64,000 nt of DNA from Parvibaculaceae bacterium PLY_AMNH_Bact1. GTDB taxonomy: Bacteria > Pseudomonadota > Alphaproteobacteria > Parvibaculales > Parvibaculaceae. The number at the start of each line of letters is the position of its first letter. The stretch's first letter is position 1. Under the pieces are notes generated by a model. The model ran no database searches. It was not told the origin of the DNA and saw nothing but the letters and a program-made list of their open reading frames with translations. Positions 1,009 through 52,408 of this stretch are shown piece after piece. A program made the position numbers and the translations under genes. The stretch covers positions 3,101,501 through 3,165,500 of the forward strand of contig CP126168.1 in the NCBI GenBank assembly GCA_032881465.1. The letters are read 5' to 3'.

Positions 1009-1818
1009 ATGACCACCTACAAAACATTGAAAATCGAAAAACAGGGCGCCGTCGACTGGGTCACAATGAACCGTCCCGATGCGCTGAATGCCATGAACCC
1101 AGAACTCGTCACCGACCTGCTCAATTATTTTGGCGGGCTCTATATGGATCATAGTGTGCGGGTGGTCGTGCTTCGCGGCGCGGGACGGGCTTTCTGCGCC
1201 GGTCTCGATCTGAAAGATCGGTCAAACACACCAGAGACTGATACGACGTCAAGCCCACAAGCGGGCCTGGTTGGTCAACGGCGGATCAGCGAGATTGTCA
1301 TGCGCATGCGACGCGCGCCGCAACCCATCATCTCTTTGGTACATGGACCGGCCTGCGGCGGCGGCTTTGCCCTGGCACTTGCAAGCGACATTCGCATTGC
1401 CGGCGAGAGCGCACGCATGAACGCTGCTTTCATCCGTATTGGTCTCTCTGCCTGCGATATTGGCGTGAGTTACTTCTTACCGCGCCTTGTCGGGGTTTCC
1501 GTCGCCAGTGAACTCATGATGACGGGGCGCTTCATCAACGCGTCGCGCGCAGAACGTGTAGGACTCGTCTCCGAAGTTGTCCCCGATGATCAACTCGCGC
1601 AAGCAGTGCAGCCCTATCTCGACGAAATGCTGACAACAACACCGCTGGGACTCCGCCTCACCAAAGAATGCCTGAACATGAGCGTCGACGCAGGCAGCCT
1701 CGAAGCCGCCGTCGCCATGGAAGATCGCAACCAGATTCTCTGCGCCCAGACGGATGATTTTCGTGAGGGGATCAGCGCATTTCTGGGGAAACGGGCGCCG
1801 AATTATCAAAATACTTGA
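1009..1818 (+). CDS. Enoyl-CoA hydratase/isomerase family protein
   Basis: A crotonase-fold protein of 269 residues, the usual length. Oxyanion-hole segments are clear: GAGRAFCAGLDLKD (about residues 57-70) and GPACGGGFALALASD (about 111-125). The two catalytic glutamates of true enoyl-CoA hydratases are missing: the first position is Ala in GGGFALA, and the second falls in the AAFIRIGL segment. An aspartate in GLSACDIG aligns with the third acidic residue of dienoyl-CoA isomerases. It may therefore be an isomerase or a crotonase with other chemistry rather than a hydratase. A GGAGG-type ribosome site precedes the ATG. It is followed after 167 bases by an acyl-CoA dehydrogenase, consistent with fatty-acid or branched-acid catabolism. 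Confidence 0.85.
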   Translation: MTTYKTLKIEKQGAVDWVTMNRPDALNAMNPELVTDLLNYFGGLYMDHSVRVVVLRGAGRAFCAGLDLKDRSNTPETDTTSSPQAGLVGQRRISEIVMRMRRAPQPIISLVHGPACGGGFALALASDIRIAGESARMNAAFIRIGLSACDIGVSYFLPRLVGVSVASELMMTGRFINASRAERVGLVSEVVPDDQLAQAVQPYLDEMLTTTPLGLRLTKECLNMSVDAGSLEAAVAMEDRNQILCAQTDDFREGISAFLGKRAPNYQNT

Positions 1819-1985
1819 TCCTCTGCGGTCACAATTCGGCAATATCCCTGATTTTCGTGGGGGAACCTACGATTTTTGCTGGACTCTTAAGGGTAATAAA
1901 GCGTCGAATCTGCTCGACAAACGCGTTCGGACGAATAGAATTCGGGCCGCTTACTGACAATTTTGAAAATTGAGGACACGACGCC

Positions 1986-3845
1986 ATGCCATCTTATAAG
2001 GCGCCTGTTGAGGACTTCATGTTCCTCTTCCACGAACTTCTTGAAATCGACAAACGCTCCGACTTGCCCGGTTTCGAAGACCTAACCCCCGACATGACCG
2101 GAGCTATTCTCGAAGGCGGCGCGAAATTTTGTGAAGAAGTTTTGCAGCCCCTGAACCAGGTCGGCGACGAACACGGCTGCGTTCTGGAAAACGGTGTTGT
2201 TCGCACACCACCAGGTTTCAAAGAAGCCTTTGAAAAATATTGTGAAGACGGCTGGAACCGCCTAGGCGCGTCCGAAGAAATGGGCGGCGCAGGTCTCCCC
2301 TCTGTCATCACCTTCGCCTTCTCAGAAATGGGATCGTCTGCAAACCAGGCCTTCACAATGTATCCCGGCCTGACCAACGCCGCCTACGGCGCGCTGCATG
2401 CAACAGGCGAAGACTGGATGAAGGAACATGTCGTTCCGAAGATGGTCGCGGGTGAATGGACCGGCACCATGTGTCTGACAGAGCCACATTGTGGTACGGA
2501 TCTGAAGCTCATGCGCACCAATGCGGTTGAGCAGGAAGACGGCACGTACCGGATGAACGGCACGAAGATCTTCATCTCTGGTGGCGACCACGACATGACC
2601 GACAATATCGTTCACATGGTGATTGCAAAAATCCCAGGTGAAGACGGCAAGCTTGCCAACGACCTGTCGACCGTGAACTTCTTCATGGTTCCAAAATTCA
2701 TTGTCGATCCCGAAACTGGTGAAATGGGCCAGCGCAACGGCGTCTCCACCGGCTCCATCGAAAAGAAGATGGGCATCAAGGGCAACGCAACTTGCGTACT
2801 GAACTTCGACAATGCAGTCGCCTACAAATTAGGCGGCGCACCTAAGAAGGTCAAAAAGGACGCGGACGGCAAAGAAGTAAAATCCAAATCGTCCGGCATG
2901 GCTGGCATGTTTGGCATGATGAACGGCGCCCGCATGGGTGTTGGCATCCAGGGCATCGCCGTTGGCGAAGTTGCCGTGCAAAACGGTGCAGCTTACACAC
3001 TCGAGCGGACAGCCGGGCGCTCGCTGACTGGCGCTAAGAACCCAGATCAGTCAGCCGACCCGATCATCGTGCATCCGGACGTGCGTCGCCTGCTGTTGCA
3101 GTCACGCTCCTTCGTCGAAGGTGCCCGCGCACTTGCCATGTATGTCTCCATGCTTTTCACCGTGCAGAACAGTGCAGCCGATGAGAAGGAACGGGAAGAA
3201 GCCGCAGATCTCAGTCAGCTTCTGACACCGGTGATTAAGGGCTACTTCACAGACAAAGGCTTTGAAGCAGCAAACGCGTCCATGCAGGTCTTTGGGGGTC
3301 ACGGCTATGTCCGCGACCATGGCATGGAGCAGTTCGTCCGCGACGCTCGCATCAACCAGGTCTATGAGGGCGCCAACGGCGTTCAGGCGCTTGATCTTGT
3401 CGGTCGGAAAATGACCGCCAAGGGTGGCCGCGCCACAATGACCTTCTTCGGCAAGATCGAAGCTTTCATCAAAGAGAATGAAGGCGACGAAGCGATGAAA
3501 CCTTACATCGAGCCGCTTAAGGTTGGATATGAGCGCATGGGCAAGGCCGCTGGCTGGCTCATGGAAAATGCGCCGAAGAATTTCGACAATGCAGGCGCCG
3601 CCTCATACGAAATGATGAACATCTTCGGTGTGGTATCCCTTGGCTGGATGTGGGCACAGACGGCTAAAGTCGCCCTGGCCAAACTCGCAGCAGGCGAAGG
3701 CAATGCGGACTTCTACAACCGCAAGCTGGTTCTCGCGAAGTTCTGGCTGGAGCGCGAAGTGCCAAACACAGCCGCTTACCTTGAGCGCATTGAGTTGGGG
3801 TCCGAGGATCTGATGAAACTCGAAGAAGATGCGTTCGTAGCGTAA
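1986..3845 (+). CDS. Acyl-CoA dehydrogenase, long bacterial form (DmdC-like)
   Basis: FAD-dependent alpha,beta-dehydrogenation of an acyl-CoA. At 619 residues it is about 200 longer than classical acyl-CoA dehydrogenases and has the layout of the large bacterial group that includes 3-methylmercaptopropionyl-CoA dehydrogenase: a short N-terminal extension (YKAPVEDFMFLFHEL), acyl-CoA dehydrogenase N, middle (MCLTEPHCGTDLK) and C domains, then a bacterial C-terminal alpha-helical domain (about 480-610). The catalytic glutamate is expected in NQVYEGANGVQ (about residue 460), and the FAD-binding FGGHGYVRDHGMEQ block precedes it. The substrate cannot be read from sequence; a fatty acyl-CoA or a sulfur-containing acyl-CoA is possible. 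A strong terminator follows. Confidence 0.88.
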   Translation: MPSYKAPVEDFMFLFHELLEIDKRSDLPGFEDLTPDMTGAILEGGAKFCEEVLQPLNQVGDEHGCVLENGVVRTPPGFKEAFEKYCEDGWNRLGASEEMGGAGLPSVITFAFSEMGSSANQAFTMYPGLTNAAYGALHATGEDWMKEHVVPKMVAGEWTGTMCLTEPHCGTDLKLMRTNAVEQEDGTYRMNGTKIFISGGDHDMTDNIVHMVIAKIPGEDGKLANDLSTVNFFMVPKFIVDPETGEMGQRNGVSTGSIEKKMGIKGNATCVLNFDNAVAYKLGGAPKKVKKDADGKEVKSKSSGMAGMFGMMNGARMGVGIQGIAVGEVAVQNGAAYTLERTAGRSLTGAKNPDQSADPIIVHPDVRRLLLQSRSFVEGARALAMYVSMLFTVQNSAADEKEREEAADLSQLLTPVIKGYFTDKGFEAANASMQVFGGHGYVRDHGMEQFVRDARINQVYEGANGVQALDLVGRKMTAKGGRATMTFFGKIEAFIKENEGDEAMKPYIEPLKVGYERMGKAAGWLMENAPKNFDNAGAASYEMMNIFGVVSLGWMWAQTAKVALAKLAAGEGNADFYNRKLVLAKFWLEREVPNTAAYLERIELGSEDLMKLEEDAFVA

Positions 3846-3885
3846 AACCTTCAGTCTATAATTGAGTTTCGTTGACGAAAATACG

Positions 3886-3915
3886 AAGCCCCGGTGGAAA
3901 CATCGGGGCTTTTGT
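3886..3915 (+). terminator. Rho-independent terminator of the acyl-CoA dehydrogenase
   Basis: Perfect eight-base arms AAGCCCCG and CGGGGCTT around a ten-base loop, followed by TTGTTT. It lies 40 bases after the acyl-CoA dehydrogenase stop and upstream of the start chosen for the PAS_5 gene. Confidence 0.85.
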
Positions 3916-3979
3916 TTGTCTTCTGGCAAGAATTGAACACCCATACTGCCGCATCAATCTTCATGAGTTGCGCGGGTGT

Positions 3980-4537
3980 GTGGTGGCGATTTTTAACTCT
4001 CCCTATTTCAATCAAGTAAAAGCCTACTGGCAATCTGTGGCGGGAGACGGCGTGCCAAACGTCAGCGCCTTCGATCTCATTCAAATTCCTTCAGCCTTAC
4101 CTGACATCACCTTTTGGGAAATGTATCCCGACGGACGCGTCATCTGCAGAATGGTCGGCACCGCAGTCATAGCGCGTATGAAATCAGATATCACAGGCGT
4201 CGAACTATCGGCCGCCATCCCCCCTTCCACAGAGTTCAATTTGACGGATGACTTGCGGATGCTGTTCTCACAGCCTTGCGCGCTCTTTCAGGTTTTGGTC
4301 AATCGACACGTAACGGGGAAGATTGCCCGCATGGAGACGCTGACATTTCCCCTTGCCGCTGACAAAGGCAGTAACCCCAAACTAGTGACCGTCAATCACA
4401 TGCTCGAAACGATCAAATATGCAGACGACCAGACCACAGAAACGCTGGAACTGATGCGCACAATAGAAGACCATAGATTTGTCGATCTGGGCTCTGGCCT
4501 GCCCAGTGTTAAAAATGCACAACAGATTACAGGATAA
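3980..4537 (+). CDS. PAS_5 domain protein
   Basis: A 185-residue protein whose central part matches the alphaproteobacterial PAS_5 family: YWQSVAGDGVPNVSAFD near the N-terminus, IQIPSALPDITFWEM, then CRMVGTAVIARMKSDITG, which is the typical RLVGT...G...TG core. Such proteins are predicted sensory or regulatory proteins without an output domain. The frame is open further upstream, but the earlier TTG at 3872 lies before the terminator hairpin of the previous gene, so a GTG at 3980 (or the next codon) is preferred. The ribosome site is weak and the exact start is uncertain. The gene is monocistronic or leads into the agmatinase operon 62 bases later. Confidence 0.65.
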   Translation: MVAIFNSPYFNQVKAYWQSVAGDGVPNVSAFDLIQIPSALPDITFWEMYPDGRVICRMVGTAVIARMKSDITGVELSAAIPPSTEFNLTDDLRMLFSQPCALFQVLVNRHVTGKIARMETLTFPLAADKGSNPKLVTVNHMLETIKYADDQTTETLELMRTIEDHRFVDLGSGLPSVKNAQQITG

Positions 4538-4599
4538 GACTTCCTTCCCTCTTCCCTGAAGCAGCCACATGTCTCATTCTAAGTCCTGAGGAGAGACCA

Positions 4600-5565
4600 A
4601 TGGCTGACTATGATCCATCCCAGATTGGCGAAGAAAAAGGTGATGCCGCTTTTACGCGAACATCGCCCCATGGCGGCTCCTATGAGGCTACCTATGCAGG
4701 CGCAACGAGCTTCCTGCGATGTCAGTACACCCGCGACCTGACGGAATTTGATGTCGCAGTTTCCGGCGTACCCTTTGATCTTGCAACCACCGGCCGTCCC
4801 GGCGCGCGGCTTGGGCCACGCGCTGTCCGCGAGGCCTCCGTCAATCTCGCATGGGATCAGCCTCAAGGCTGGGAGTTTAACCCGTTAGACCAATTGAAAG
4901 TAGCCGATTGGGGCGATTGTGTTTTTGATCCCGGCAGGCCTGAAACATGGATCGACCGGTTGGAAGCCCACGCGGCAGAAATCCTGGCGACAGACACCGC
5001 CATGCTCACCATTGGCGGGGATCATTTCATCTCCTACCCGATGGTGAAAGCCCATGCAGCAAAGCATGGTGCCCTTTCTCTCATCCACTTCGATGCGCAC
5101 TCAGACACTTGGGAAGACGCTGATGGCCGCATTGATCACGGCACCATGTTTTATCACGCGAAAGAACAGGGACTCATTGTGCCCGAACGCTCCATCCAGG
5201 TAGGGCTGAGAACCCACAATCCAAAAACGCATGGCTTCAACATCTTGGATGCCACAGAGACGTGTGATACGGACGCCAGCATTATTGCCGCGAAAATAAG
5301 AGAGGCTGTGGGCGCAGATCCCGTTTATCTGACCTTCGACATAGATTGTCTCGACCCGGCTTACGCGCCAGGAACCGGCACGCCTTGCGTCGGTGGTCTG
5401 ACGACCCGTCATGCACTTGATATTTTGCGAGCTCTTGAAGGCATCAACCTTGTAGGCATGGACGTGGTGGAAGTGGCCCCCGCCTATGACGTGAGCGAAA
5501 TCACTGCACTGGCAGGCGCCACCATCGCCTACCAGCTGCTCGCGCTCTACGCTGCAAGACCATGA
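4600..5565 (+). CDS. speB: Agmatinase (ureohydrolase family)
   Basis: Hydrolyses agmatine to putrescine and urea with a binuclear manganese centre; related guanidino acids are possible substrates. The 321-residue protein shows all metal-ligand blocks of the arginase/agmatinase family: GGDHF (about 144-148), FDAHSDTW (about 166-173) and FDIDCLDPAYAPG (about 246-258). An N-terminal extension with a SYEATYAGATSFLR segment resembles the agmatinase branch rather than arginase. GAGGAGA precedes the ATG closely. Its stop overlaps the ATG of the following GNAT gene by four bases, so the two are translationally coupled. A role in polyamine or guanidine metabolism is inferred. Confidence 0.85.
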   Translation: MADYDPSQIGEEKGDAAFTRTSPHGGSYEATYAGATSFLRCQYTRDLTEFDVAVSGVPFDLATTGRPGARLGPRAVREASVNLAWDQPQGWEFNPLDQLKVADWGDCVFDPGRPETWIDRLEAHAAEILATDTAMLTIGGDHFISYPMVKAHAAKHGALSLIHFDAHSDTWEDADGRIDHGTMFYHAKEQGLIVPERSIQVGLRTHNPKTHGFNILDATETCDTDASIIAAKIREAVGADPVYLTFDIDCLDPAYAPGTGTPCVGGLTTRHALDILRALEGINLVGMDVVEVAPAYDVSEITALAGATIAYQLLALYAARP

Positions 5566-6014
5566 AATTCACGTTCCGGCCCATAACACCATCAGACCGC
5601 GAACTCATTGAGGAACTGGTGCGCGCCTATTATGCCTTTGACGGTCTCACCTATGACCCAACGCTTCATGGGCCCGCGCTGGATCAGTTGGCCCAAGGCG
5701 ACCCGGCAGTAAAAATCTGGATTGTGGAGGCGGACAGGGAACCAGCAGGTTACCTCATCCTCACAATCGGTTTCTCTATGTATTATGGCGGTAAGGATGG
5801 CTTCATTGATGAGCTCTTCCTGAAAGACGCTTATCGCGGCAAGGGTGGCGGCGCGGAGATCATGCGCTTTGCCGACGAACAAGCGAAAGAACTTGGGCTC
5901 GCCTACCTCCATCTGGAAGTGACTGAGACCAACACCCGCGCAAGGGGGATCTATGAACGCCGGGGCTTTGCGCCAACGGGGCATATGTTGATGAGCAAGA
6001 GGACGGCACTCTGA
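5562..6014 (+). CDS. GNAT family N-acetyltransferase
   Basis: A 150-residue acetyltransferase of the GNAT fold. The acetyl-CoA pyrophosphate loop is DAYRGKGGGAEIM (about residues 89-101), followed by the beta5/alpha4 region HLEVTETNTRARGIYERRGF, which is canonical. The substrate is unknown. Its position between an agmatinase and a small-molecule kinase-like gene, with an ATGA overlap to the agmatinase, suggests an amine or polyamine acceptor, but this is only context. Confidence 0.85.
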   Translation: MKFTFRPITPSDRELIEELVRAYYAFDGLTYDPTLHGPALDQLAQGDPAVKIWIVEADREPAGYLILTIGFSMYYGGKDGFIDELFLKDAYRGKGGGAEIMRFADEQAKELGLAYLHLEVTETNTRARGIYERRGFAPTGHMLMSKRTAL

Positions 6015-6979
6015 CCGACCGCAACCTGGAGCGCCGCCACGCATTCATTGATCTGTCTGACGATGAGATTCGCAAGCTCATCGCACCCGCCTTCGGCAGG
6101 AATGCGCTAGACCACTCAACGCAGCTGAGTGGCGGACGCGTCAATTCCAACTATGCGTTGAGTTTGAAGGTCGAACCATTCAACGCAGTCCTCCGCCTCT
6201 ATGCGCGCGGACAAAACACCTGTCGGATAGAACGGGACATTCTTCAGACCCTTGAAGCGCGAGCCCCTGTAGCGAAAGTGCTCCTGGACGGATCAGACAG
6301 CACCCATCCTTTTCTGGTGCTTTCCTGGATCAACGGCGAGACACTGGACAACACGCTCGATCAGCAATCTCAGAACACGGCACACCTCGGAAGCCAGGCA
6401 GGGGAAGTCCTTGCCCACATCCACCGGATAGAGTTCCCAGAAGCAGGCTTCTTCGGGGAAAACCTCAAGATTGAAAACACCTTCCCTCTTGGAAAAGAGA
6501 GTTTTCGATCGTTTGTAGGACCGGCCATAGAGGCAAGAGCCGGAACACGCCTGGGCAAGGATCGAACTGAAAAGTTGCGCCTATTCTCCAGGTGGGCTGC
6601 GCCTTTGCTGGATCAGTTGCCAAAGCGCGTCTGCCTGGTTCACAGCGACTTCAACCCACCAAATCTTATGGTCTTTCAGGGAAAGCTCGCCGGTGTGCTC
6701 GACTGGGAATTTGCGCACGCAGGTGCCCCGCTGACAGATATCGCCAACATGTTGCGCCATCGTCCCTACCAGCCACCTGAATTCGGCGAGGCTTTTGTCG
6801 CTGCTTATGAAGCAACAGCTGGCGCGCTGCCTACCCACTGGCAGTCGCTTTCCCGCATCCTCGACTTGATGGCCCAAATCGAGATGCTCGATGCACCTGG
6901 GGACCGGCCAGGCGTCTTCAAATGGGCGATCGAACGTATCGAAGACACAATGAGATTTGTCGAAAACGATTTGGGCTGA
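6011..6979 (+). CDS. Aminoglycoside phosphotransferase family kinase (non-standard start)
   Basis: An APH-fold small-molecule kinase. Catalytic loop VHSDFNPPNLMVF (HxDxxxxN) and metal-binding GVLDWEFAHAG are present, as is the substrate-loop region CRIERDILQTL. The first ATG/GTG/TTG-type codon (TTG 6158) would cut off the N-terminal lobe segment GGRVNSNYALSLKVEPFNAVLRLY, which clearly belongs to the kinase fold. The frame is open back to 5957 but contains no ATG, GTG or TTG before 6158. The CTG at 6011 overlaps the upstream stop (CTGA) and has AGAGGA seven bases before it, so it is proposed as the start, giving 322 residues. The function is probably phosphorylation of a metabolite, not resistance. 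Confidence 0.75.
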   Translation: MTDRNLERRHAFIDLSDDEIRKLIAPAFGRNALDHSTQLSGGRVNSNYALSLKVEPFNAVLRLYARGQNTCRIERDILQTLEARAPVAKVLLDGSDSTHPFLVLSWINGETLDNTLDQQSQNTAHLGSQAGEVLAHIHRIEFPEAGFFGENLKIENTFPLGKESFRSFVGPAIEARAGTRLGKDRTEKLRLFSRWAAPLLDQLPKRVCLVHSDFNPPNLMVFQGKLAGVLDWEFAHAGAPLTDIANMLRHRPYQPPEFGEAFVAAYEATAGALPTHWQSLSRILDLMAQIEMLDAPGDRPGVFKWAIERIEDTMRFVENDLG

Positions 6980-7108
6980 ACCCCTCAAATTCACGTTTCG
7001 CAAGCCCCCACCCCATGATAGCGTGCCCGCCATCAAAATCAGGAAGGCACTCGCGTCTTCAAAGACTTAAGCCGCCTTGAGGGTGGCAAACACGAACAGG
7101 GAAAAGAT

Positions 7109-7888
7109 ATGAAGAACCTCTTTGATATCAGCGGCAAAGTCGCCATCGTCACCGGCGGCTCCCGCGGTATTGGTGAAATGATCGCACAAGGCTATGTCGA
7201 AAACGGCGCCAAGGTGTACATCACCGCCCGTAAAGCAGAGGCCTGTGACAACACAGCCGCACGCTTGAGCGAAATCGGCACCTGCATCTCTATTCCCGGA
7301 GATCTCTCCACCGTGGAGGGCGTTACAAAGTTTGCAGAAGAAATCGCGAAGCGCGAAGAAAAAGTCGACATCCTCGTCAACAATGCAGGCGCCGCGTGGG
7401 GCGAACCTCTCGAAGGCTACCCGGAAAGTGGCTGGGACAAGGTCTTTGATATCAACATCAAAGGTCCTTTCTTCCTCATTCAGAAAATGCTGCCGCTCTT
7501 GAAAAAGGCGTCAACCTATGAAGCGCCCGCCCGGATCATCAACACCGCCTCCATCAACGGCATCAACCCACCCATGCTCGAGACCTATGCGTACTCAGCA
7601 TCAAAAGCCGGCATGATCATGCTGACCCGCCACCTAGCACAGCGGCTCGCAAACGACGACATTCTGGTGAACTGCATCGCCCCCGGCCCGTTCCAAAGTC
7701 ACATGATGGCCGCAACCCTGGCCACTCTGGGTGATGAGATTGCCGGTGCTAACCCACGCAAACGGATCGGTCAGCCTGAGGACATCGCAGGCGTGGCCAT
7801 CTTCCTGGCCTCGCGCGCCAGCGCCTACACAACAGGTGCCTGTGTGCCGTGTGACGGCGGTGCCAGCCAGGTTGGCGGTGGTATGTAG
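7109..7888 (+). CDS. SDR family NAD(P)-dependent oxidoreductase
   Basis: A classical short-chain dehydrogenase of 259 residues. Cofactor motif TGGSRGIG (about 16-23), NNAG (about 91-94), catalytic Ser in NTASINGINPP and Tyr-x-x-x-Lys in YSASK (about 166-170). An arginine after the first strand (ARKAE) suggests NADP(H) preference. The spacer of 129 bases from the kinase gene suggests its own promoter. The substrate is unknown; a 3-ketoacyl or hydroxy compound is typical. A bidirectional terminator follows. A GGGAAAAG-like ribosome site precedes the ATG. Confidence 0.85.
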   Translation: MKNLFDISGKVAIVTGGSRGIGEMIAQGYVENGAKVYITARKAEACDNTAARLSEIGTCISIPGDLSTVEGVTKFAEEIAKREEKVDILVNNAGAAWGEPLEGYPESGWDKVFDINIKGPFFLIQKMLPLLKKASTYEAPARIINTASINGINPPMLETYAYSASKAGMIMLTRHLAQRLANDDILVNCIAPGPFQSHMMAATLATLGDEIAGANPRKRIGQPEDIAGVAIFLASRASAYTTGACVPCDGGASQVGGGM

Positions 7889-37494: not shown

Positions 37495-39066
37495 TCATAA
37501 CTTTTCGGTCAAATCAATAGTGTTCGCTTTGTCTGCCAGAGCAAGAGAGTTCCTGCTTTTGGATTCATAAATCGACCTAAACAGTCCACTGTGCAATGTA
37601 AATTTCTCGCGATAATTGATCACCGATGTCGGAAAATTGTATTTGAATGTGCGATAGTAGAATGGTGTTTGACTTTCAACGTCTTTTCGCTTGTCAATAT
37701 TACCAACCACCGAATACTCAAAGAGAAATTTCAGTATATTTTCAAGACCTATCTTCTCGAAAAGGTCTCTGTCAAAATTGCCTTCCTCTGCAAAGGCTCT
37801 TTGAATCTGATGAAATGAAAAATATCGAATTTTGTGAATTTTACCAAATGCATCCAGATACCCGTCGACATCCTTAAGGACTGAGTGCATCTCGTCTACA
37901 ATCTCTTTTCGGAAGCGTCTTGAATATAAGTCTTCTGATTGCACAAAAGTCTTTGGAGCTATCCTCGTGTACCCCTGATCGTATTCGTCAGTAACCTTCG
38001 CTACAATTTGTATATATCTGATGAAATCTCGAGGCCGACTAAACGTCCGCTTATGTATGTAATCTATCGGCTTTATTCTAAATATCTCGTTGGATCGCTT
38101 GTTCTCGATTTCAACCGGCCTATCAAACACGATCCTCTTCCAACTTGCGCGAAAACCCTTGTCCTCAATTGCCTCATGAGCCGAATGACATATTCTGTGT
38201 GAGAGCATGTTGTGAATCTGGTCTTTCCGCCACTTCAAGTCACAAACGAAGTCTTCCCACTTCTCGCTGTCACTGTCTCTCAGGTCATCGAACATGTCCG
38301 TCCGTATAAAAACCAAAGGAATAACGTTCAGCCCCGACCTTCTGAAACTCAATCTTTCATCAAAACACGATTTTATCAGTCCACGGATAATCGTCTGTTG
38401 CTTTTCGTAGCTTTTACCTGACCTTGTTGCATCAGTTAGTTCTGCATCAAGACCATCAAACATCACATAGTATTTTGAATCATCGCAGTTCTCATAAATA
38501 AACCTACCGAGGAGCTCAACGGTACGCGCTAAACTATTGATGTCAGCAGAATCAAACTTCTTCTCTGTCGAGAAGCTCAATCCTGGCGTCAGCACGTTAT
38601 CCCCGATACCAACAGATATCTTGTTACCAGGTGACCGACCCAGAACTTGCGCCAGTTGCTTCTCCGGAGAGGCCGGAAACCAGTCATCAAGCTCACGACC
38701 AATTTCTGCCTTAACACGCTCATTCTCTGTAAACAGATCAACAACCGCACTGTAAATTACATATCTCCAAATCAAAACATAGGCAGACAAAGGCAGATCA
38801 CCCGTCACACCCACGTCTTGAAAAAACTCAATTGGTGAACGATCAAGCGTAATCGACTTGGAGAAATGGTCGAAGGATCTCATTGAGCGGATATACTGCA
38901 GTATGGCTGTCTTGCCACTTCCCTTTCGGCCTTTGACGAAGATGTAGTCTCCGTTTTTGACTTTTCTAAAAGCTGGAAATTCATAGAACAATTTCCCCAT
39001 ATCCTCAGCTTTCGCCTCGATATTCCAACGGGCAACATGAGGTAGCAAGTTTAGTGGTTTCGCCAT
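37495..39066 (-). CDS. P-loop ATPase of Sll1717 type, probable defence/accessory protein
   Basis: A 523-residue protein with Walker A GRKGSGKTA at 46-54 and Walker B-like YYVMFDGLD at 199-207. The layout (NTPase core about 20-330, then a winged-helix-like region with RKEIVDEMHSVLKDVDGYLDAFGKIHKIRYFSF) matches the Sll1717-type P-loop ATPases, STAND/KAP-like relatives often found singly in defence islands. The coding sequence is visibly AT-rich with codon choices unlike its GC-rich neighbours (many AAA, AAT, TTT, AGA), indicating horizontal transfer. GAAGGA precedes the ATG. No effector domain is recognised, and no partner gene is intact nearby. Confidence 0.75.
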   Translation of the reverse strand: MAKPLNLLPHVARWNIEAKAEDMGKLFYEFPAFRKVKNGDYIFVKGRKGSGKTAILQYIRSMRSFDHFSKSITLDRSPIEFFQDVGVTGDLPLSAYVLIWRYVIYSAVVDLFTENERVKAEIGRELDDWFPASPEKQLAQVLGRSPGNKISVGIGDNVLTPGLSFSTEKKFDSADINSLARTVELLGRFIYENCDDSKYYVMFDGLDAELTDATRSGKSYEKQQTIIRGLIKSCFDERLSFRRSGLNVIPLVFIRTDMFDDLRDSDSEKWEDFVCDLKWRKDQIHNMLSHRICHSAHEAIEDKGFRASWKRIVFDRPVEIENKRSNEIFRIKPIDYIHKRTFSRPRDFIRYIQIVAKVTDEYDQGYTRIAPKTFVQSEDLYSRRFRKEIVDEMHSVLKDVDGYLDAFGKIHKIRYFSFHQIQRAFAEEGNFDRDLFEKIGLENILKFLFEYSVVGNIDKRKDVESQTPFYYRTFKYNFPTSVINYREKFTLHSGLFRSIYESKSRNSLALADKANTIDLTEKL

Positions 39067-39905: not shown

Positions 39906-39992
39906 TGGTGCCCCTGGCCGGACTCGAACCAGCACGCCCGTACGGACAGCAGATTTTGAATCTACCGCGTCTACCAATTCCGCCACAGGGGC
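39906..39992 (-). tRNA. tRNA-Leu (CAA)
   Basis: An 87-base class II tRNA on the minus strand. Acceptor arms GCCCCTG and CAGGGGC, a D-arm with GGTAGACGC, anticodon loop TTCAAAA giving anticodon CAA, a long variable arm (CCGTACGGG-type), TTCGAGTCC T-loop and an encoded CCA 3' end. It forms the right border of the accessory island. Confidence 0.95.
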
Positions 39993-45830: not shown

Positions 45831-46529
45831 TTACCAGTCGTATAGGCCGACAAACCGCTCAAACCCGGCCTCATCAGACCATTCCGACCAGGCGGTGCGG
45901 AAACGCGCGGTGGTGCTTGGACTATCAAATCCGCGGCCAAGCCCCAACATGAGAAGCTCACCACATCCAGCGAACGCGTCTGCCTGAGCGGGCGGCAGCT
46001 TGCCACCGGAGCGGGTCAATCGTCCAAGCTCACTATCTTCTGCACCATCGGTAAGGAGCACGATCCTAGTAGGCTTTGAACAATCAAGACCACCGGCCAT
46101 GGTCTCAAGAAACGGAACGATGTTGGTTTTCATCTGCGCTTCCAACCGTCCTTCTGAGACCAGACGGGGAAGGTTCGACACCAGAGCCTGAATGCCGTCA
46201 GCCACATCACCCGGGCGTGCCCGCGCCGAGATTACCTGATCAATGCGCAAAGGATTGGACCCTGTGTCGTAAACCCCAAACGACCGCACTGTCACTTTGG
46301 AGCGAACTGGTAGGTCACGGATTTCTTCTGCGAGCCTGTCCGCGACTTGGCGCGCAAACACATCGCTGGTCACCAACGGATTAGATTTAGAAAGATCAAG
46401 GCCAATCACAAGATGCGTGGGTGCTACTGGTTCGCTGGAGAGAGCAGCGTCAGCGCTGCCGGACAAAAAACTTAAAGCCAGGACACCACTTGCGACCACA
46501 CCCGCAACAACTCCACCAATCCGCTTCAT
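45831..46529 (-). CDS. Exported von Willebrand factor A domain protein
   Basis: A 232-residue protein with a signal peptide (residues about 1-28, ending SADA-A). The rest is a vWA domain: THLVIGLDLSKSNP holds a MIDAS DxSxS (DLSKS), and RIVLLTDGAEDSE the later MIDAS aspartate. A conserved-looking Cys pair (LDCSKP and FAGCGE) may form a disulfide. vWA domains bind partners through a metal. It is the last gene of a three-gene leftward unit, five bases after the membrane protein gene, so a periplasmic partner role for that protein is likely. No known family beyond vWA is recognised. Confidence 0.8.
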   Translation of the reverse strand: MKRIGGVVAGVVASGVLALSFLSGSADAALSSEPVAPTHLVIGLDLSKSNPLVTSDVFARQVADRLAEEIRDLPVRSKVTVRSFGVYDTGSNPLRIDQVISARARPGDVADGIQALVSNLPRLVSEGRLEAQMKTNIVPFLETMAGGLDCSKPTRIVLLTDGAEDSELGRLTRSGGKLPPAQADAFAGCGELLMLGLGRGFDSPSTTARFRTAWSEWSDEAGFERFVGLYDW

Positions 46530-46534
46530 GCGCC

Positions 46535-47626
46535 TTACTCCGCCGCCTTATTGATCGGAACGCGGCGACCTGTATTGACCGGCGGCAAAACCTCGCCAAC
46601 AGCCTCGCGCGGCCCACCATCATTCACCGACATCCGTTGCCGGCGCGACCACCAGTCTTCAAAAAGCGCCTCGTAGCGAGCAATCTGCTGGCTATCAGCA
46701 CAGGCCTTGAGCTGTTCGCTGCGCTCTTCTGCCGCTGCTCTTTCCTGGCGTTTGCGACCAGGCGCTGGCAGCGCCCGCACCTTACGGCCTGTCAGGTAAC
46801 TTGTGCGCGTTCCTTCAAGTCCACGTTCATAGGCGCGACAGGAATCCATCAGTCGGGTCCACAGCATGTTCCGGCGATAATCCATCCGCTCCATATCGAT
46901 AAGCGTTTCGCGATTACGCGCATATTCCGCTTCCAATGCAGCCAGACGGCTCGTGTCTGCTTTGCGCTCAGCAAAATCGCGTGTCTCGAAGAGTTTCTTG
47001 AGATTGATCAGCGCGTAATGGAGGAAAAGCGCCGCCACGCCTGTAACGACCAGGAAGATCACCCCAAGCGATGCCATCCACAGCACAGGCTGATAGGCAC
47101 GCGCCTCATCGAGTCCGGTCTGGGCAACCGCCGCTTCGCGGGCCGCTTCCGTCTCGATACCAAGACTGGAAAGTGCAGATCCAAGAGAGGCCCCATTACC
47201 ACCAAGACCCGCATCCGCAAGACCGGCTGGCAGAGACATGAGGGCCAGCAACAACCCGACACCACCGAGCATCGTGAGCGCCAGGAGGAAGAGCACGCGG
47301 ACAAAGACCGCGCGTCCAAAGACACCCATATGCTCAATAAAGATGTGAGCCGCGAGCGTAGCGAACAAAACCTGCAAGCTCTTGAACGCAACAGAGCTTG
47401 CCAGTGATCCCGGCAGCTCCAAAAACTCATTGGCGAGCGCCCGGGTCCAGAATTCCGTGACGATCATATAATCGACAAACAGTGCACTCGCTGCCACGAC
47501 CACCGTGAAGAAGATCGCACCAAAATAGAAAGGCCGGTAGCGTGCATCACGCTGACTGGCGATGAAGTTCTCATTGATTTTGTGACGCTGATCATCACTC
47601 ACAAGGGACGAAGAAACGAATTTCAT
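46535..47626 (-). CDS. Four-helix membrane protein with cytoplasmic coiled coil
   Basis: A 363-residue protein. Predicted membrane segments: about 35-57 (FYFGAIFFTVVVAASALFVDYM), 83-103 (LQVLFATLAAHIFIEHM region), 108-130 (VRVLFLLALTMLGGVGLLLAL) and 182-204 (LGVIFLVVTGVAALFLHYALI). The segment between helices 3 and 4 is Gly/Ala rich. After about residue 205 it is charged and helical (ETRDFAERKADTSRLAALEAEYARNRETL), a probable coiled coil, ending in a basic, proline-containing tail. No family is recognised. ATG 47626 lies five bases after the stop of the preceding small gene. It may be the membrane platform of the vWA unit. Confidence 0.75.
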   Translation of the reverse strand: MKFVSSSLVSDDQRHKINENFIASQRDARYRPFYFGAIFFTVVVAASALFVDYMIVTEFWTRALANEFLELPGSLASSVAFKSLQVLFATLAAHIFIEHMGVFGRAVFVRVLFLLALTMLGGVGLLLALMSLPAGLADAGLGGNGASLGSALSSLGIETEAAREAAVAQTGLDEARAYQPVLWMASLGVIFLVVTGVAALFLHYALINLKKLFETRDFAERKADTSRLAALEAEYARNRETLIDMERMDYRRNMLWTRLMDSCRAYERGLEGTRTSYLTGRKVRALPAPGRKRQERAAAEERSEQLKACADSQQIARYEALFEDWWSRRQRMSVNDGGPREAVGEVLPPVNTGRRVPINKAAE

Positions 47627-47631
47627 GGAAC

Positions 47632-47910
47632 TCACGCCTCCCCTGTTTTCGCAGCGCGACGGAACCAGCGGCGGCGTGGTTTCTCGTCACCACTCATAGG
47701 TGCCGACAAGCGACGCCCTAGGGAAACGATCTCCCGCTCCAGATGTTCCTGGCGTGCACGACGGTCGCGCAGTTCTTCGCCATATTCGGCGTCAGCCTGG
47801 GTAAGAACAGAATGAATGTGAATATCGGGAAGCGGCTCAGCGCGGCGCCCATACTCGGCGGCTGCTCGCAGCTCTTCTTCCCGTTTTTGGCTCTCTTGCC
47901 CCCAGCTCAT
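47632..47910 (-). CDS. Small charged coiled-coil protein
   Basis: A 92-residue soluble protein of unknown family, first gene of the vWA unit. It is very rich in Glu, Arg and Ala (WGQESQKREEELRAAAEYG, RDRRARQEHLEREIVSLG) and is predicted helical; the C-terminus is strongly basic (KPRRRWFRRAAK). Its charge pattern resembles adaptor proteins that pair with the coiled coil of a membrane partner. ATG 47910 is chosen; the frame is open 19 codons further without similarity or ribosome site. Confidence 0.65.
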   Translation of the reverse strand: MSWGQESQKREEELRAAAEYGRRAEPLPDIHIHSVLTQADAEYGEELRDRRARQEHLEREIVSLGRRLSAPMSGDEKPRRRWFRRAAKTGEA

Positions 47911-48174
47911 GGCGCACCTCTTGTCAGTTGCAGAATGGGAAAGGCAGCAAACAGATGAACGCAGCAATTCCCCTCCAAATCTCCGTACGCCGCACAGATC
48001 GAAGATCCAGGCCTTAAGTCTTGCTCAAGCTTTGCGGCGAAACCAGCCCTGAAATGGGGCGAAAGTGTGTTAACGCTAACTTTTCAGTGAAGCGGCGGGT
48101 CCGTGACGGTCGCTCTACGGACGATTGCACTCTCTAAATTCAGTGTTCTGCCTAAATGGGCGCCAGTTAACCGT

Positions 48175-51580: not shown

Positions 51581-51685
51581 CACCGCGCCCTCTTTCGTCC
51601 CAGATAAATTTCAAGGTGATAACAGACAGCATTGACAGCACCCAATCAATGTCCACAAATGAGAAATGAAAATTTCAAAGAGGAC

Positions 51686-52408
51686 ATGCTGAAAATGCAA
51701 TTTGCCTTGAGGTTTATCACACCTGCTATTGCCTTATGCGTCGCAACCTCAGCGCTGGCATTTGACGCTGACTGGATTAGAGATTGGCCACAACAGGCGC
51801 AGGACGCAGTCCCGAGGCAATCAACGATGATTGCGGACAAAAGAGGTCAGATCACCAACTATTCGACCTCAGACGAAGGCGTGAGCCTGATACTGGCAGA
51901 CCTTCGGCGCATTCGTTCGGCAGAGACCAATGATCAAAAAGAAGCAGCACAGTGGATTGTTGAACATCAACTCGACCTGCCACCACCCTACCTGTATGAA
52001 GCAGCACGCCAACTGCTTGGATCCGACAAAAATCAAGCCGCCGAGACGTACCTTTTGGCTTTCGTCAGAACACGATACGACGCGTCAAAATGTTTAGATC
52101 GATCGGCACCACAAGGAATCGCCTTCTTTTCAATGGAAATGCCTGAAGTGCCCAAAGCGCTGCAAGGTGATGCAGGTACTGTTGCAGCAGCGCTTGAGAA
52201 AGTACGTCAACGACTCGACCTGTTCAGTCACCAGGCATCTTCATGGTGGATATGCTCGCACGGCATCAGAAACTCGGTGGTGGCATCGAGCAACCAGCAA
52301 ATCAACCTCGAACAATGGAGGAAACCTGAGTCAGACTGGGCAGGACTGAGACAGGCACAACTTGATTCACTCGATAGGAGTTTGGCCAGGTTAGCCACAC
52401 AGGACTAA
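51686..52408 (+). CDS. Exported hypothetical protein
   Basis: A 240-residue secreted or periplasmic protein: signal peptide MLKMQFALRFITPAIALCVATSALA, then a mature domain rich in helices (WIVEHQLDLPPPYLYEAARQLLG). A Cys-containing C-terminal region includes WWICSHGIRNSV. No family is recognised. GAGG lies close upstream, fitting ATG 51686 poorly and ATG 51695 somewhat better; an earlier ATG at 51659 is also in frame. The base composition is more AT-rich than ccr upstream. It stands alone between ccr and an alcohol dehydrogenase gene. Confidence 0.65.
   Translation: MLKMQFALRFITPAIALCVATSALAFDADWIRDWPQQAQDAVPRQSTMIADKRGQITNYSTSDEGVSLILADLRRIRSAETNDQKEAAQWIVEHQLDLPPPYLYEAARQLLGSDKNQAAETYLLAFVRTRYDASKCLDRSAPQGIAFFSMEMPEVPKALQGDAGTVAAALEKVRQRLDLFSHQASSWWICSHGIRNSVVASSNQQINLEQWRKPESDWAGLRQAQLDSLDRSLARLATQD

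Follow-up and report, generated by a model that had tools for sequence, protein, structure and literature searches.

A conserved, uncatalogued three-gene unit of some Alphaproteobacteria encoding a small charged protein, a predicted four-helix membrane protein and a predicted exported von Willebrand A protein

Three short genes read leftward in a 64,000-nucleotide stretch of Parvibaculaceae bacterium PLY_AMNH_Bact1 (hereafter the window; C1:3101501-3165500, C1 being the single contig of this 3.74 Mb genome) raise the question of whether they form a unit of their own and, if so, what that unit does. They are named A, B and C below, in the order in which they are read:

47632..47910, minus strand: gene A, 92 amino acids, ATG at 47910 and stop at 47632; equivalent to the N-terminal, probably cytoplasmic domain of fused B proteins
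46535..47626, minus strand: gene B, 363 amino acids, ATG at 47626 and stop at 46535
45831..46529, minus strand: gene C, 232 amino acids, ATG at 46529 and stop at 45831

Five bases separate the open reading frames (ORFs) of A and B, and also those of B and C. The first-pass annotation of this DNA had described a leftward triplet with these gaps, made of a small and highly charged protein, a 363-residue protein with four helices, and a von Willebrand A (vWA) protein with a signal peptide and an intact metal ion-dependent adhesion site (MIDAS). Its coordinates are exact to the base, and the composition of A, the hydrophobic peaks of B and the predicted fold and invariant MIDAS residues of C, given below, agree with each of the three descriptions. 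As a whole, A-B-C is a real, conserved and uncatalogued three-part unit, and its products likely form a complex.

Conservation and joint inheritance

Proteins B and C were found in the same 23 of 41 relatives and, among 385 genomes of the class, in the same 21, distributed over eight families. As for 398 genomes drawn from the phylum, C was found in its own genome only. The first fetch comprised 20 of the 23 relative matches, i.e. the own genome and 19 relatives, and in all 20 loci A, B and C follow one another in order, with gaps of -14 to +11 bases. The same order is kept in all 29 loci L041-L069, and C adjoins B in 48 of the 49 loci L041-L089, the exception being L078, where B lies at a contig end. 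Profiles and alignments of B and C were built from selected, non-redundant loci (alignments A1, A2, A3, A5 and A6, with 18, 22, 27, 29 and 24 rows, respectively).

The three genes are also absent together. In the window, the unit lies between an upstream B12-dependent mutase gene of the methylmalonyl-CoA mutase family (Pfam), which we take to be ethylmalonyl-CoA mutase (ecm), and a downstream gene with a Pfam match for a permease, presumably of the AEC type. The 100% complete genome G019 has neither A nor B nor C: its ecm match runs to 10792, and that of the permease follows 65 bases further on, from 10857. Genome G007 lacks all three as well. The first-pass annotation had made its proposal depend on homologues staying together in other genomes, and the triplet indeed co-occurs, adjoins and goes missing jointly. 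It had also placed the membrane partner in no family, and had named a clear match to a known system as a second ground for dropping the proposal: searches of Pfam, NCBIfam, PHROG, PADLOC and PDB gave no such match, and A-B-C is described in none of the papers listed on bacterial and alphaproteobacterial vWA proteins, MoxR/Bat operons, Parvibaculum and ethylmalonyl-CoA mutase, in a collection with few subscription journals.

Tandem copies were seen in two loci of one family, namely B-C-B-C in L077 (905-4688) and, in L083 (3-2897), B-C-B followed by the contig end, off which one of the two B copies runs. These B-C duplicates are old and divergent in both the B and C trees, and may correspond to two complexes or to a mixed one.

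A phage-defence or other mobile module would fit the patchy presence of the unit (21 of 385 class genomes), and is hardly credible in view of the rest: PADLOC gave no match, the PHROG matches for all three proteins are weak, B and C have no plasmid match (no phage or viral-contig collection was searched), and in most loci the unit keeps a single old site among conserved neighbours. Its GC content, about 0.56-0.58, is also that of its surroundings.

Protein C

The N-terminus of C consists of a hydrophobic stretch followed by an AxA site, after which a single domain carries the pattern DLSKS...T...TDG. The AxA site falls inside residues 13-42 in 41 of the 49 locus copies, and the predicted signal peptide would make C an exported, periplasmic protein. 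Its AlphaFold model (predicted local distance difference test, pLDDT, 85.5; predicted template modelling score, pTM, 0.79) was placed among vWA domains by both Foldseek and VIA. The top VIA chain is 8s05_B, with Z 12.5 over 155 residues and a root-mean-square deviation of 3.1, many rows being tied; Z reaches 8 or more in 587 of 998 aligned chains, and the best 50 of these 998 rows, with Z from 11.1 to 12.5, are mostly named vWA, I-domain or other vWA-bearing proteins. The model thus predicts a vWA fold for C, with the following features:

46383..46397, minus strand: MIDAS motif DLSKS (D45, S47 and S49)
46125-46127 and 46047-46049, minus strand: MIDAS residues T135 and D161, respectively, completing the five-residue set
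45834..45839, minus strand: C-terminal Asp-Trp, invariably closing the chain

All five MIDAS residues are identical in the 50 aligned sequences (the window and the 49 locus copies), and C ends exactly in Asp-Trp in the window and in 49 of 49 locus copies; this terminal pair is possibly a recognition signal or a buried end. Of the cysteines, C189 is present in all 50 sequences and C150 in 48, the other two having a glutamate in that column, and a C189-C150 disulphide is possible.

The vWA nature of C is seen by fold and motif and hardly by profile, since the Pfam scans are weak. None of the 27 C members scanned at E 0.1 matched a vWA Pfam family, and against the whole of Pfam these members gave scattered weak matches, in one or two members each. 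Neither C nor A has a Pfam, NCBIfam, PHROG or PADLOC match of weight, and the profile search of C against PDB returned weak matches only, vWA proteins among them, with a best E of 0.013.

MoxR ATPases are reported to be common partners of vWA proteins (PMC13036017), and one clear AAA_3 gene exists in this genome. The unit could then be a metal- or cofactor-insertion or assembly factor served by a distant MoxR-type AAA+ ATPase, in the manner of Bat or NorQD. That reading is improbable: the AAA_3 gene, the only match above the cut-off, is at C1:2,547,391, about 600 kb from the unit, with three weaker matches elsewhere, so that the earlier remark that there is no MoxR ATPase nearby stands; the predicted export would put C beyond the reach of a cytoplasmic ATPase; vWA matches are absent from B; and C lacks a hydrophobic stretch at its C-terminus.

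Membrane protein B

Four hydrophobic peaks were found in B, centred near residues 45, 88, 120 and 193, the second being the weakest. The corresponding helices, and the loop between the first two, are as follows:

residues about 33-57, 79-99, 107-130 and 181-205 of B: transmembrane helices predicted by hydropathy, then a long, putatively cytoplasmic helix
47393..47455, minus strand: predicted first periplasmic loop of B, residues 58-78, EFWTRALANEFLELPGSLASS; the most conserved part of B, together with its flanks

In 24 aligned rows, the two outer loops hold on average 1.0 and 2.1 lysines or arginines and 3.5 and 8.3 aspartates or glutamates, while the two ends hold 16.3 and 18.5 lysines or arginines and nearly as many acids. 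Because the ends carry most of the basic residues and the outer loops few of them and more acids, B is predicted to be a four-helix protein with both its N- and C-termini in the cytoplasm. A long helix (179-284) in the tail is predicted by AlphaFold. Residues D52, W60, K82, Q85 and H94 are invariant (24 of 24 rows), an acid occupies position 58 in all 24, and the loop 58-78 is a candidate docking site for C.

Concerning families, no convincing match for B was found in Pfam, NCBIfam, PHROG, PADLOC or PDB; the 24 B family members gave scattered weak Pfam matches, one or two members each. Two candidates were set aside. The window B matches phrog_16782 at E 2.7e-4, and this match was treated as chance because only 2 of the 24 B proteins have it. 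The fold neighbours of B are scattered helical proteins (Foldseek best E 0.76, VIA Z 7.0) and were not used.

Four of the invariant residues, D52, K82, Q85 and H94, are charged or polar and lie in or at the membrane, as might be expected if B were a channel or transporter and C its auxiliary subunit, controlling opening or delivery as alpha2delta does. C also resembles the vWA domain of alpha2/delta-1 (8if4_A, Z 11.7, rank 9, tied with many rows), a domain reported to touch the first loop of a channel domain (PMC6231325). We consider this possible, though unlikely. No convincing transporter or channel family appeared among the 24 B proteins, where the matches are weak and confined to one member (the best, ABC2_membrane, at E 0.041); the profile search of B against PDB gave nothing at E 1; and D52 and K82, near the periplasmic helix ends, may only form a salt bridge.

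Protein A and its fusions with B

Protein A has 19 lysines or arginines and 18 aspartates or glutamates among its 92 residues and no hydrophobic segment, and would therefore reside in the cytoplasm. In four loci, namely L070 (Candidatus Phaeomarinobacter), L074, L075 and L076, A and B form a single ORF, in which the A profile is matched at E 1e-10 (L070), 4e-14 (L076) and about 3e-9 (L074 and L075). These fusions suggest that A is probably the split-off cytoplasmic part of B. The 24 aligned B proteins vary accordingly in length: with start codons chosen by the analyst, D52 is preceded by 49-58 residues in the 6 rows in which A is separate, and by 93-212 in the remaining 18, two of which are natural fusions. 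In this set, the N-domains of the distant B proteins of L080 and L089 match the A profile at E 1e-4 and 6e-4, respectively.

The split-A group adjoins the fused group in the unrooted trees of both B (local supports 0.98-0.99) and C (0.74-0.79), and since both trees agree on this placement, a single fission would be the simplest history of the A/B split. A joint alignment of A rows, B rows and a natural fusion misplaced the A rows and was dropped.

Upstream region and CtrA-type box

Three features were noted upstream of A:

47911..48174, minus strand: intergenic region, with a block of about 150 bases strongly conserved in the genus of the window (six sequences)
48036..48064, minus strand: direct repeat TTTCGCC-N15-TTTCGCC, unique in the 3.74 Mb genome even when 3 mismatches are allowed
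48014..48028, minus strand: TTGAGCAAGACTTAA, one mismatch from TTAA-N7-TTAA, at -118; a weak window counterpart of the Parvibaculum box described below

The region is probably the promoter of the unit. By eye, the Parvibaculum block upstream of A is similar to it, not identical. A regulator shared with other genes was not retained for the TTTCGCC repeat, which has no second genomic site within 3 mismatches, nor for GATCTGTGCGGCGTACGG, which has three other matches, all at 3 mismatches, vs. five for the control. An RNA element was likewise rejected: one Rfam match was obtained at E up to 1, with a score of 23.1 vs. a gathering score of 50 bits. The upstream fold is no more stable than its shuffles (z 0.99), and the inverted repeat visible in it is broken, by eye, in genus member G005.

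The box TTAA-N7-TTAA is the consensus of CtrA (PMC9437464, PMC7200025). Fifty upstream stretches were scanned, 34 of them upstream of A or of fused A-B and 16 upstream of distant B. Ten of them, each from Parvibaculum or a near relative, carry the exact box, positioned between -41 and -45 relative to A; six carry an N6 version, including those, in tandem, of the fusion loci L070, L074 and L075, and none was found with gaps of 4, 5 or 8-11. The 731 kb of the 49 loci hold 12 N7 sites in all, these ten included. The ten boxes are not ten independent events because the loci are related, though their spacers differ between species.

In G018, a genome from Parvibaculum or its near relatives, genes adjoining N7 sites encode a PBP-type (penicillin-binding protein) transglycosylase (PF00912), a D-Ala-D-Ala carboxypeptidase (PF00768), an ABC ATPase that is FtsE-like by eye, a sugar transferase and three histidine kinases. 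This gene list is a selected sample, in which 15 of 22 places were fetched and 10 ORFs by 9 loci, picked by eye, were scanned. The CtrA-type box hints at a cell-cycle-linked envelope role in Parvibaculum; it is kept as a hint for that genus and is not ascribed to the window, which has just the one-mismatch site.

Genomic neighbourhood and other observations

Within the 49 loci, the commonest neighbour is gluQRS, presumably an unrelated tRNA-modifying enzyme (42 loci), followed by HNH (37), ecm (36), AEC (32), an acyltransferase-like membrane protein (26), ccr (25) and the acyl-CoA dehydrogenase gene acd (25); these counts are lower bounds, some locus stretches being short. The frequencies of ecm, ccr and acd would suit a unit serving the metabolism of its neighbours, i.e. 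the ethylmalonyl-CoA pathway (ecm and ccr) and acyl-CoA dehydrogenase. This explanation, already weakened, is very improbable: gluQRS is found more often than any of the three, loci L080, L089 and L074-L076 have acd without ecm inside the locus stretch, and ecm, ccr and acd are all retained in G019 and G007, which lack the unit. Because of these two genomes, the neighbourhood is read as synteny around one old site.

Just upstream of the unit, L086 has three tandem large ORFs (1771-7406), and L084 (6196-8058) and L081 (6057-7955) have one each. These ORFs encode 619-640 amino acids, with a common ELRKRNVFR motif near the start (by eye).

Two other genes of the window were noted:

37495-39066, minus strand: 523-amino-acid protein with a P-loop-like GxxGxGKT (by eye) and no Pfam match at 1e-5
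51632-52408, plus strand: 258-amino-acid protein, hydrophobic (by eye) over a stretch close to the N-terminus, with no Pfam match at 1e-5

The former has a partial PADLOC match to the candidate defence family PDC-M28C (E 3e-7) and lies in a low-GC stretch (0.41-0.45 vs. about 0.55) near a tRNA-Leu (39906-39992); it looks like an acquired defence gene.

Proposed complex and its standing

Our preferred reading, for which belief and doubt are evenly balanced, is that of one inner-membrane A-B-C complex, with C docked on B, acting as a cell-cycle-linked envelope scaffold or sensor. A, B and C would make up a single complex with C as its extracytoplasmic MIDAS subunit. C would dock onto the first periplasmic loop of B, where an invariant acid, at position 58 or E67, would probably complete the metal site of C. 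B would then relay the state of C through its four helices to the cytoplasmic parts, namely the N-domain (here A) and, in many families, the long C-terminal helix. The likely job of such a complex would be that of a scaffold or sensor, most likely tied to growth or division, by which a cue in the periplasm is linked to a platform in the cytoplasm. It would do this with no MoxR-type ATPase of its own encoded in the locus.

The tight gene spacing had suggested a complex that spans cytoplasm, membrane and periplasm, and the A-B fusions, the B-C tandem duplication and the joint absence argue for it. As for the earlier suggestion of an envelope or surface system, the evidence points to the inner membrane and lends no support to the surface.

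Several points weigh against the preferred reading. Contact between the proteins is presumed, and the AlphaFold model of B is weak (pLDDT 67.8, pTM 0.41). E67 is acidic in 23 of 24 rows and a glutamine in the other. The tail of B after helix four measures 33-59 residues in 9 of the 24 aligned proteins and 120-181 in the other 15; being short in those nine, it is regarded as accessory, and the conserved core would consist of the N-domain, the four helices and the vWA protein, to the exclusion of the tail. Beyond Parvibaculaceae and the four fusion loci, the two distant N-domains mentioned above are the only ones with a clear A-profile match, the remaining ones of the 24 being weak or without match (E 0.016 or worse). 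The unit is not essential in general, since it is absent from 364 of the 385 class genomes, and its steady place by ecm, gluQRS and HNH may be old synteny that says little on function.

The role of the complex is the weakest step, based as it is on the Parvibaculum CtrA-type box and the other carriers of this box in G018. The exact box is absent from the window, from five other sequences of its genus and from 16 of 16 distant B stretches (genus member G002 entered the conserved-block comparison and was left out of the box scan). The excess of N7 places in G018 is small (22 vs. 14 for the reversed control), and some sites there stand beside an unrelated desaturase, a methylase and YebC.

A bolder proposal, which we regard as speculative and unlikely, is that B represents a new class of bacterial membrane protein, with a separable extracytoplasmic MIDAS subunit as its gate or anchor, alpha2delta-like in principle, wired to the cell cycle (through CtrA in Parvibaculum) and free of an ATPase. 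In any case, the present analysis adds a conserved, uncatalogued envelope unit and a family of all-helical membrane proteins with no matching Pfam entry found. It also offers residues for mutation, namely the MIDAS and the C-terminal Asp-Trp of C, and E58, D52, K82 and H94 of B. If the preferred complex is real, it would provide a small, ATPase-free case of an extracytoplasmic, metal-dependent vWA protein controlling a bacterial membrane protein, and the unit is a candidate addition to the cell-cycle and envelope programme of Alphaproteobacteria.

Comparison with known systems

Bat-type vWA proteins are anchored by transmembrane helices placed after or around the vWA domain. In contrast, C is predicted to be exported and has no C-terminal anchor: its hydrophobic peak is N-terminal, and it ends in Asp-Trp right after the last strand. 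The likeness to MoxR-vWA systems (PMC13036017) such as BatA/BatB and NorQD resides in a vWA protein with an intact MIDAS, coupled to its partner by an operon, whereas the A-B-C locus has no ATPase gene, a single vWA protein and a partner with four helices that belongs to no known family.

Among described bacterial systems, the closest analogue found is McaA of Magnetospirillum magneticum AMB-1, which acts in magnetosome positioning. McaA has a signal peptide and a periplasmic vWA domain with an intact MIDAS, its MIDAS mutant loses localisation and function, and it addresses a membrane-bound system (PMC9512821). Set beside it by description, C shares the signal peptide and the periplasmic vWA domain with MIDAS, for C as predicted from its sequence, and the presence of a second membrane protein as partner, in that case McaB. 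McaA differs in having, as described there, its own transmembrane helix and a cytoplasmic C-terminal domain in one chain, while C is separate, short and vWA-ended; McaB has one predicted transmembrane segment vs. the four hydrophobic peaks of B. Because the architecture differs, C may at most work like McaA.

The alpha2delta subunit of CaV channels is large and multidomain. It shares with C the principle of an extracytoplasmic MIDAS vWA subunit standing by a polytopic membrane protein, with docking on a first loop (PMC6231325). Neither in sequence nor in fold was B found to be related to CaV, the model of B being weak and its best Foldseek E being 0.76; the pair is an analogy of principle, in which C would dock on B. 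Finally, within the vWA superfamily at large (integrin I domains, Sec23/24, ArnB), C has the predicted fold and the complete MIDAS set DxSxS...T...D in common with its relatives, and is set apart by a sequence too divergent for the catalogued families, an invariant C-terminal Asp-Trp and a conserved cysteine pair.

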